A DNA stretch of 64,000 bases from Methanosarcinaceae archaeon. GTDB lineage: Archaea > Halobacteriota > Methanosarcinia > Methanosarcinales > Methanosarcinaceae. The notes under the pieces were generated by a model. The model saw nothing but the letters and a program-made list of their open reading frames with translations, was not told where the DNA came from and searched no databases. The position numbers were made by a program, and so were the translations under genes. Shown in pieces: positions 3,525 through 63,630 of the stretch (position 1 is the first letter of the stretch; the number at the start of each line of letters is the position of its first letter). The stretch is taken from assembly GCA_030611265.1 (NCBI GenBank), contig JAUWQD010000006.1:1-64000 (forward strand). Direction: 5' to 3'.

Positions 3525-3632
3525 AGAGCTTTACGAGCGTTGATAAGAATTGTTTATGAATAGATTGACAAGCTTGTTCATGATTTGTATGGGGTGACAG
3601 AGGAGGAGATTAAGGTGGTGGAGGAAAAATGA
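3511..3632 (+). pseudogene. Remnant of the C-terminal tail of a second type IIG methyltransferase
   Basis: This segment repeats the last 123 bases of the methyltransferase gene (1844-1966) with many changes. Reading across it gives an ELYER-like stretch, then two stop codons, then IDKLVHDLYGVTEEEIKVVEEK in two blocks. The intact gene has INGLVYDLYGLTEEEIKVVE. It overlaps the last codons of the HEPN gene and the start codon of the AlbA_2 gene. It marks a decayed duplicate methyltransferase, and suggests that the HEPN gene lies between a full and a degraded copy of the same tail. Confidence 0.75.
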
Positions 3633-36153: not shown

Positions 36154-36340
36154 ATCACGTTATCTAATCCTGTTTTATAAAAATATATTTTCATGGCTCA
36201 TTAACTTTTCTTTTTGATTATATTCATATAATATATATCTTAAATGTATGTGAAAATACTTGCAATGTATTTATGCAAGTAAAGTGAATGATAAAGTCAA
36301 ATCAAGTATGATCCCTGATTAAACGTTTCGATGTTTTAAA

Positions 36341-36463
36341 TAGTATATAATTTATAGAATTATATAGTTCGAGTTAATTCGACCGGAGGGTGAATTTTCT
36401 CGTAGTATATGTTTTATAAACATATAGTGCAAGTTAATCCGAGCATAGCGAGGATTTTCTTGT
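36341..36463. repeat. Composite palindromic repeat, copy A (two units)
   Basis: Four palindromes alternate about every 30 bp. First is an AT palindrome at 36344-36366 (arms TATATAATT/AATTATATA). Next is a hairpin at 36370-36402 with CGAG/CTCG outer pairs, a TT/TT internal loop, AATTC/GAATT inner pairs and an 11-nt loop. Then comes an AT palindrome at 36406-36426 (TATATGTTT/AAACATATA). Last is a hairpin at 36430-36462 with CAAG/CTTG and AATCC/GGATT pairs and the same internal loop. It matches copy B (62209-62331) at 121 of 123 bases. It lies between uppS and the RNase H-like gene. The other part of this intergenic region (36154-36340) is AT-rich and holds a 7-bp inverted repeat ACTTGCA/TGCAAGT at 36258-36280. 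Confidence 0.85.
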
Positions 36464-39285: not shown

Positions 39286-39343
39286 CGAGAAAATGCTTAC
39301 TTCGTTCGCATTAACTCGCACTATATATTTATAAAATATATAC
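39286..39343. repeat. Composite palindromic repeat, copy C (one unit)
   Basis: A hairpin at 39286-39318 has CGAG/CTCG outer pairs, an AA/AA internal loop, inner pairs AATGC/GCATT and an 11-nt loop. An AT palindrome follows at 39322-39342 (TATATATTT/AAATATATA). The inner-stem base that is T-A in the first hairpin and C-G in the second hairpin of copy A (minus-strand view) is G-C here. The right end meets the start codon of the HicB-like gene (39345). Confidence 0.8.
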
Positions 39344-39344
39344 T

Positions 39345-39545
39345 ATGAAAACCATAATACAAATCCACAAGGAAGGAAAGTATTTCATAGCCTCAGACCT
39401 GATATCAAATGTCGCGGATCAGGGACTTACGGAAAAGGAAGCTCTTGCAAACTTGAAAAAAGGACTTGAAGAACATTATCAAATCCTCATGGAGCTCGCC
39501 CCGAAGGATCAAAATTGCGACATAACACAGCAGGACACAACATGA
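39345..39545 (+). CDS. HicB-family antitoxin-like protein (orphan)
   Basis: The 66-residue protein has the HicB fold pattern: a short strand-rich start (KTIIQIHKEGKYFIASDL) and a helix typified by GLTEKEALANLKKGLEEHYQ. HicB neutralises the HicA mRNA interferase, but no hicA frame is visible on either side. The start codon lies at the end of a composite repeat without a ribosome binding site, which suggests leaderless translation. The stop overlaps the start of the next gene. Confidence 0.75.
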   Translation: MKTIIQIHKEGKYFIASDLISNVADQGLTEKEALANLKKGLEEHYQILMELAPKDQNCDITQQDTT

Positions 39546-47663: not shown

Positions 47664-47722
47664 CGAGAAAATCCTCGCTGACGCTCGGATTTAACTCGGA
47701 CTATATATTTATAAAATATATG
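47664..47722. repeat. Composite palindromic repeat, copy D (one unit)
   Basis: A hairpin at 47664-47698 has CGAG/CTCG outer pairs, inner pairs AATCC/GGATT and a 12-nt loop, so its loop and one side of the internal loop are each one base longer than in the other copies. The AT palindrome at 47703-47721 (ATATATTT/AAATATAT) follows. The loop resembles that of the second hairpin of copy A (TCGCTGACGCTC against TCGCTATGCTC). The unit lies 70-125 bases upstream of the Nif3 gene. Confidence 0.75.
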
Positions 47723-47789
47723 CTATCAAAAAGAAGGGTTGAATCTGCATTCCGATAAGTTGATATTTACTAAAAAACATGGATGTGTA

Positions 47790-53828: not shown

Positions 53829-53906
53829 GAGTATTTCTACCGAGTATTTCTACCGAAATCCTCTACCGAAATCCTCTATCGAAATCCTCTACCAAAATCC
53901 TCTACC
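53829..53906. repeat. 13-bp direct tandem repeat, six units
   Basis: Two units GAGTATTTCTACC (53829-53841, 53842-53854) are followed by four of the form GAAATCCTCTACC with single changes (53855-53867, 53868-53880, 53881-53893, 53894-53906). A partial seventh, AAAAGT, follows. CCTCTACATCC and CAGTCCTCTAC occur upstream. The array is between divergent genes (53175-53762 minus and UbiA plus), so it may be a regulator-binding array or an iteron-like repeat. Confidence 0.85.
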
Positions 53907-54025
53907 AAAAGTAATTCTGGCGTGTTGATATTTATAGTTGCTTGAAATGTATTTTGCACTTGTTACTTATAACAAGGCTAATATATAATATGGAAATTAG
54001 GATTTAGTCATATAAGGTGATATAT

Positions 54026-62140: not shown

Positions 62141-62208
62141 GCCTCTTGTATATTTTCGTATAATTGGTTAGGTTTGCATATATATTTATATGTATTTTTA
62201 TCTTTTTG

Positions 62209-62331
62209 TAGTATATAATTTATAGAATTATATAATTCGAGTTAATTCGACCGGAGGGAGAATTTTCTCGTAGTATATGTTTTATAAACATATAGTGCAA
62301 GTTAATCCGAGCATAGCGAGGATTTTCTTGT
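62209..62331. repeat. Composite palindromic repeat, copy B (two units)
   Basis: This is the same structure as copy A with two base changes in 123 positions (62235 and 62259). AT palindromes are at 62212-62234 and 62274-62294, and hairpins at 62238-62270 and 62298-62330. It lies upstream of the PAC2 gene and the COG1751-like gene, in the divergent region 62141-62448. Nothing else notable lies in that region except AT-rich DNA. Confidence 0.85.
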
Positions 62332-63213: not shown

Positions 63214-63606
63214 ATGATGGAGTATATTGCATTAACAGGAATATCTGAAAATGTTATGAAAGAACTCAGGAATCATGTCCTGCGGACAATTGAGATTCGA
63301 AATGCGCAAAATTTCTTTGCTGCACTAAGGCTCAATGCAGGAGATTATGTTTTCCTGACCCATACAAGTGGGCAGGATATTACTGCCGGCACATCTGGCG
63401 TTCTCGCAAGAGTGCTCAAGCATCAGATATCAACACACCTTGTGCTTCAAAGCAATGAGATGTTCTACGAAGAGCGCGAGATGACAATGGCAAGGATCCA
63501 GTTGGAGCCAAAGTATATTACACACATTCGCAAGGTTCTGTGCAGCGAGATTGGTGAAGTTGCACGCGTTATTGCGGATGAATCCTCGTGCTATGAAGCA
63601 CGGTGA
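63214..63606 (+). CDS. DUF473 domain protein
   Basis: The 130 residues match the archaeal family DUF473: YIALTGISENVMKELRNH, RTIEIRNAQNFFAAL, then DYVFLTHTSGQDITAGTSGV and a late helix with KYITHIRKVLCSE. It occurs in methanogens and relatives with no known function. The start is an ATG after AAAGGTGAT; the following ATG could also serve. It forms an operon with PAC2. Confidence 0.85.
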   Translation: MMEYIALTGISENVMKELRNHVLRTIEIRNAQNFFAALRLNAGDYVFLTHTSGQDITAGTSGVLARVLKHQISTHLVLQSNEMFYEEREMTMARIQLEPKYITHIRKVLCSEIGEVARVIADESSCYEAR

Positions 63607-63607
63607 T

Positions 63608-63630
63608 AAAATATATACTACGAGAAAATT
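63608..63630. repeat. Composite palindromic repeat, decayed copy E
   Basis: AAAATATATACTA, then CGAGAAAATT, matches the inner part of the minus-strand form of copies A and B, that is, the right half of an AT palindrome and the left arm of a hairpin. The second arm is not intact (a degenerate GATTAATTC at about 63664). It lies two bases after the stop of the DUF473 gene. Confidence 0.55.

Follow-up and report, generated by a model that had tools for sequence, protein, structure and literature searches.

A repeat of about 60 nt, consisting of an AT-rich hairpin followed by a second hairpin of 33–35 nt, is dispersed through the genome of an ANME-3 archaeon, whose relatives include the Haakon Mosby ANME-3 MAGs. 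We found that this unit has inserted precisely, in a single orientation and immediately 3′ of TTTTTNA-like sequences, and that both of its hairpins, carried on one strand, are under selection for pairing. Mobility of the element is well supported. On balance, we regard it as a minimal non-autonomous mobile element that may be moved as folded single-stranded DNA by a Y1/HUH transposase. Precise movement of a 60-nt element lies close to the minimum size for transposition, and no report of such repeats in uncultured methane-consuming archaea was found in the literature. The covariation seen over many copies can serve as an evolutionary readout of what the enzyme recognizes, namely two hairpins, tandem GA, a GNA loop, and a 4-nt terminus that pairs, and the enzyme could therefore be assayed in vitro with no need for a culture of the host. 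The repeats are, in addition, markers of insertion polymorphism at the strain level and, possibly, of a gene-exchange network that includes ANME-3, ANME-2, and their relatives.

Anatomy of the unit and selection for pairing

The whole stretch of DNA analyzed (64,000 nt, hereafter the window) was scanned with a covariance model of the unit, R1. Six intact units of 60–62 nt were detected (E 3e-14 to 4e-10), arranged as two head-to-tail pairs and two singles; the scan gave no seventh full-length unit and two weak reverse-complement echoes. These positions agree with a sequence-only reading of the window, which had described an array at 36341–36463, a near-copy at 62209–62331, and single units at 39286 and 47664. 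In the first array, on the plus strand, unit 1 occupies 36341–36402 (86.6 bits, E 6.5e-14), with its left AT hairpin at 36341–36369 and its right hairpin at 36370–36402 (CGAG...CTCG), and unit 2 occupies 36403–36462 (79.9 bits), with the corresponding hairpins at 36403–36429 and 36430–36462 (CAAG...CTTG). The T-rich, target-like sequence TTTTAAA (36334–36340, plus strand; consensus TTTTTNA) lies immediately 5′ of this array. The second array, also on the plus strand, is composed of units at 62209–62270 (88.1 bits) and 62271–62330, the latter likewise placed by R1, and is preceded by the target-like CTTTTTG at 62202–62208. Both singles are on the minus strand, at 39286–39345 (78.4 bits), preceded on its own strand by GTTTTCA (39346–39352), and at 47664–47725 (66.0 bits), preceded by TTTTTGA (47726–47732); the latter unit has an additional A, which is the extra base noticed earlier in one copy. 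A 25-nt remnant at 63606–63630 (minus strand), detected in the inverted repeat I1/I2, is a fragment of a two-unit junction, AATTTTCTCG^TAGTATATATTTTAT (here and below, ^ marks a junction). The two dimers are 98% identical over 126 nt and their flanks are unrelated; with a third copy (97% identity, other flanks), the near-identical dimer is present at three unrelated places, and dimers thus probably move whole. Other repeats in the window are a 13-bp tandem repeat, TCTACCGAAATCC, in about five copies (53836–53910), and an 81-nt direct repeat (1876–1956 and 3542–3622, 85% identity) located at or just past the ends of neighboring ORFs.

Each unit begins with T[A/T]G, continues with the AT-rich hairpin, which starts 3–4 nt from the left end of the element, and after 2–5 nt reaches the right hairpin. 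The 5′ half of the right hairpin reads CRAG, TT, five pairs, GA, and two pairs, followed by a loop of 3 or 4 nt, and the 3′ half mirrors it (two pairs, GA, five pairs, TT, CTYG). The resulting helices comprise 4 bp of CRAG/CTYG, a 2×2 T-T loop, 5 bp, a 2×2 tandem G-A, and 2 bp, capped by a GNA triloop or a GNNA tetraloop, and the TT spacers separate CRAG from the stem. The 2×2 internal loop had been recognized in the earlier reading, whereas what was taken there for a plain loop holds the second 2×2 motif, the tandem G-A, and the 2-bp apical stem. GA/GA is conserved in 85 of 113 distinct right hairpins, GNA in 57 of 82 triloops, and GNNA in 22 of 31 tetraloops. The unit has TAG at one end and CTYG at the other, which do not form an inverted repeat. 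In single copies, NATAG precedes the left hairpin and TAGTG, TAGTC, or TACTC precedes the right one.

Sheared tandem GA and GNA/GNNA loops stabilize hairpins of single-stranded DNA. Since GA/GA and GNA read TC/TC and TNC on the opposite strand, their conservation suggests that one strand is under selection. An excess of G-T over A-C pairs in the 29-nt left hairpins (74 vs 12) also points to single-strand selection; the right hairpins (38 vs 31) and the 27-nt left hairpins (9 vs 8) show no such excess.

The proposal that folding is selected, made previously from a few hairpins, was borne out in a larger set. The fold energy of the first array was 7.6 SD (as DNA) or 7.3 SD (as RNA) below that of shuffles, with none of 200 shuffles as good, and whichever strand was folded, this array lay 6–8 SD below dinucleotide shuffles. 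Among 81 distinct 33-nt right hairpins compared with 500 shuffles, 94.4% of pair cells were paired (85.3% in shuffles) and double-sided changes numbered 82 (26 in shuffles), so that pairing was kept above the shuffled level when uncompensated changes were looked for. The covariation score was 0.277, compared with 0.106 for shuffled hairpins, and was reached in none of the 500 shuffles; sliding the right-hairpin partners against each other, as a control, abolished the covariation. The outer stem is compensated as CGAG/CTCG and CAAG/CTTG, pair 2-32 being GC in 62 hairpins and AT in 6. The 29-nt class of left hairpins has one strongly covarying pair, and in a mixed set the left and right helices both covary. 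In other lineages the left palindrome is of unrelated sequence and unchanged shape, as in GTATAGGA...TCCTATAC (L249), TACATGATG...CATCATGTA (L250), and ACATAAAGTATAACTTTATGT (L234). The curated covariance models of Rfam gave no match to the unit.

Distribution and insertion sites

The search for further copies that the earlier reading had suggested returned at least 52 matches in the window genome itself. Every genome of the genus, seven in total, contains the exact core, with at least 37 copies in the window genome and at least 92 in G004. R1 matches occur in at least 33 of 186 genomes of the order, spread over four families, and a 393-genome sample of the phylum added two more families with at least a single genome each. 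One carrier, G040, is an ANME-2 cluster archaeon with at least 30 copies in a genome that is 97% complete. Among the candidates scored, R1 found no unit in most other genera of the window genome's own family. Nearly all carrier genomes are MAGs. No exact hairpin cores were found in IMG/VR, and BLAST searches of phage and plasmid collections gave no match to the unit. Exact-pattern matches at eight loci of unrelated bacteria and at one of an unclassified archaeon had neither palindrome nor hairpin and were attributed to chance. Two genomes of genus g25 (G070 and G052) contain further hairpin repeats with GNA loops, AAAATCCGACCGAAGGGAGGATTTT and its relatives (L262, L277, L284, L271), often as inverted pairs and near decayed copies of IS200 tnpA.

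Neither mobility, nor a T-rich target, nor a logic of tandem insertion figured in the earlier reading; these emerge from the insertion sites. For 15 units of the window genome, the two flanks were fused with the unit left out and used as queries across the genus, and the fused, empty form was found in many relatives. Base-exact empty sites, six in all, include TTTGTTT^TTCAAC (L003, empty in G003), GTTTTTTA^TGT (L051, G003), CTTTTTRA^TCAAC (L006, G003), TTTTCAA^TAACC (L032, G006 and G004), and ATTTTTAA^TTTTT, the last being a paralog of L025 within its own genome. At these five loci zero bases were lost and the target was not duplicated, save for one unassignable T present on both sides. The site of the unit at 47664–47725 is filled in the window genome and G001 and empty in G002, G003, G004, and G005, and the single unit at 39286–39345 is also present at the orthologous place in G003. 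In the region corresponding to 36341, G002 has a unit of its own elsewhere in the same intergenic region, which is an independent insertion.

The target is evident from the flanks of units that stand first in their arrays, 62 of 81 of which have T at four or more of the five positions from −7 to −3 together with A at −1, a pattern found at 1.1% of window positions and 2.5% of AT-rich positions. The base to the right of the insertion is T in 109 of 166 cases. Most tandem junctions read TTTTCTCG^ or TTTTCTTG^ and so are similar to the target; because the element's own end (TTTTCTYG, TTTTCTCG) resembles the target, head-to-tail arrays follow from the same specificity. The distinct arrays comprise 53 of two units, nine of three, and one of four. 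Sites L006 and L018 differ by one unit, as do L049 and L075, and L006 consists of the first left half of L018 joined to the second hairpin of L018; these differences are as expected from recombination within arrays.

Several loci showed other features. The orthologous hairpins of L047 (minus strand, hairpin at 548; window genome) and L068:1501–1533 (G003) are inverted with respect to each other and belong to different sequence types, although the flanking bases are retained. The insertion site shared by L006 and L018 lies within a dispersed repeat, roughly 40 bp long, that occupies some 20 places across the genus. L305 (G000:C108) and L025 represent another multi-copy sequence of the window genome, one copy of which has received a unit.

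Relationship to known elements and the mobilizing enzyme

In the IS200/IS605 family, a tetranucleotide located 5′ of the foot of each hairpin acts as a guide by pairing with the site of cleavage, and insertion takes place 3′ of a short target without target duplication (PMC6006769, PMC8266576, PMC3119063). The unit described here has a similar T-rich short target 5′ of the insertion, no target duplication, a fixed orientation, subterminal hairpins, and a terminal tetranucleotide complementary to the one 5′ of the right hairpin; unlike IS200/IS605 elements, it carries neither tnpA nor tnpB. The closest known elements are the palindrome-associated transposable elements (PATEs) of Haloquadratum walsbyi, 52-bp "terminal-only" forms of which are possibly still mobile (PMC3119063). 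PATEs and our unit are both archaeal and non-coding, with palindromes at both ends, no terminal inverted repeats, no target duplication, and a short targeting oligonucleotide, and the unit is too short for a transposase gene. However, PATEs share their palindromes with a traceable IS605-type parent, none of which was found for this unit, whose two hairpins are unlike in sequence and lie almost in contact, whose copies form head-to-tail arrays, and whose tandem GA and GNA loops are conserved. REPs and BIMEs, the substrates associated with TnpA-REP (RAYT), resemble it as short, strand-specific, clustered intergenic hairpins with conserved internal mismatches and high copy number, but the single copies here lack the GTAG (GT[AG]G) tetranucleotide 5′ of the hairpin foot, no tnpA-REP (RAYT) gene is adjacent, and the two-hairpin order is fixed in direct repeats, whereas REPs alternate in inverted orientation. 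No archaeal family like this unit was present in the REP literature examined. The small mobile repeats (SMRs) of Haloquadratum, which are 80–110 bp long (PMC3119063), likewise lack target duplication and a known mobilizing enzyme; they have terminal inverted repeats, which our unit does not. The absence of these repeats and of a multi-base target duplication also distinguishes the unit from MITEs of DDE transposons, and its dispersal, its arrays of two to four, and the repetition of both halves distinguish it from CRISPR arrays. In its behavior, the element resembles a REP or a PATE, the latter being a minimal derivative of IS200/IS605.

As the earlier reading had advised, we looked for a transposase sharing these ends; none was found. 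The IS200 element of the genus begins with (T)AATACTTTCACC and ends with GGGGTATAGTGACT in different flanks, and its tnpA was rejected as the source. Scans with R1 or a second model, R2, of the tnpA loci of twelve carriers and the tnpB loci of eight revealed no matching ends; matches near these genes were isolated units or were explained by repeat density in the hairpin-rich G070 and G052, and no tnpA was bounded by units. Such absence is weak evidence, because multi-copy IS elements are often missing from MAGs. L182 and L188, two contigs of one MAG considered as a longer autonomous element sharing the left end, proved to carry a lone left half, namely the target TTTTTTGA, the palindrome, and CGAGTT; that of L188 lies upstream of a gene resembling tRNA-guanine transglycosylase, as recognized by sequence. 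A 467-aa Y1-Mrr fusion (L102:850–2253, minus strand; G000:C2:28112–29512) contains a Y1_Tnp-like region (PF01797, E 1.3e-5) and an Mrr-like nuclease region that falls short of the cut-off (E 0.002). Across the order it is full length in the window genome only, its nuclease half being matched in two genomes of the same family, and it was not found in viral contigs; as it is confined to the window genome among carriers, it was rejected as the mobilizing enzyme.

Our best bet, not a demonstrated mechanism, is a single-strand transposase of the Y1/HUH class and the IS200/IS605-REP type that either is provided in trans or has since been lost, a reading to which we give slightly more credence than doubt. 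The element would move as folded single-stranded DNA, and the enzyme would cut both the 3′ boundary of the target and the 3′ terminus of the element itself, CTCG or CTTG. The outer stem, CRAG/CTYG, whose pairing is established by covariation, would represent guide:cleavage-site pairing, with CRAG as the putative guide 5′ of the hairpin. New copies would land behind old ones because the element end is target-like, which would yield head-to-tail arrays, and recombination within these arrays would lead to contraction and chimeric units. Besides the lack of a transposase with these ends and the different ends of the genus tnpA, two features argue against this model: the left hairpin lies at the very end of the unit, leaving no room for a canonical IS605 guide and linker, and the right-hairpin stems show no preference for G-T over A-C.

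The same element might instead be moved by another enzyme or route, such as a recombinase of the tyrosine or serine type, a DEDD transposase like that of IS110, a Y2/Helitron-like rolling-circle enzyme, or insertion by way of a structured RNA, which we consider a serious though distinctly less probable explanation. These routes, too, typically leave no target duplication; head-to-tail arrays suit rolling-circle or site-specific recombination; and the A^T insertion and the 3′-terminal hairpin ending in CTYG recall Helitrons, a resemblance that serves as a lead only. Several carriers have reverse-transcriptase genes, but RVT_1 is missing from G040, in spite of that genome's completeness and copy number, and is present in non-carriers, so that the distribution of reverse transcriptase does not match that of the element, and it was discarded as a candidate. 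Nearby copies enclose no recurring partner gene, and the one distinctive candidate, the Y1-Mrr fusion, has the restricted distribution given above. More tentatively still, the units could constitute a two-hairpin class of micro-transposons of methane-oxidizing archaea and their relatives that has no IS605 parent and in which a putative single-strand recombinase recognizes the ends through the covarying 4-nt guide:cut-site pair.

A host functional element, such as a site of RNA processing, termination, or nucleoid-protein binding, retained for its fold, spread mainly by recombination or gene conversion and only incidentally mobile, would account for the strongly conserved structure and for the intergenic location of approximately 94% of units, with hairpins that adjoin stop codons and sit in divergent promoter regions; there is precedent in REPs, which can take on functions for the host (PMC2817692). 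This explanation is nevertheless improbable, given that orthologous sites in relatives are often empty and that precise ends and a fixed target are the mark of a transposing element. In addition, no preference was detected for orientation relative to genes, arrangement of neighboring genes, or class of neighbor; the intergenic placement is consistent with an element that is tolerated between genes, and it lends no support to a fixed role in regulation. Although palindromes are common in AT-rich intergenic DNA, coincidence or assembly artifact is a negligible explanation in view of E values down to 1e-13, the fold energies that no shuffle equaled, a reversed control pattern that gave 0 matches against 37 for the exact core, and the occurrence of the unit in independent assemblies from several sites.
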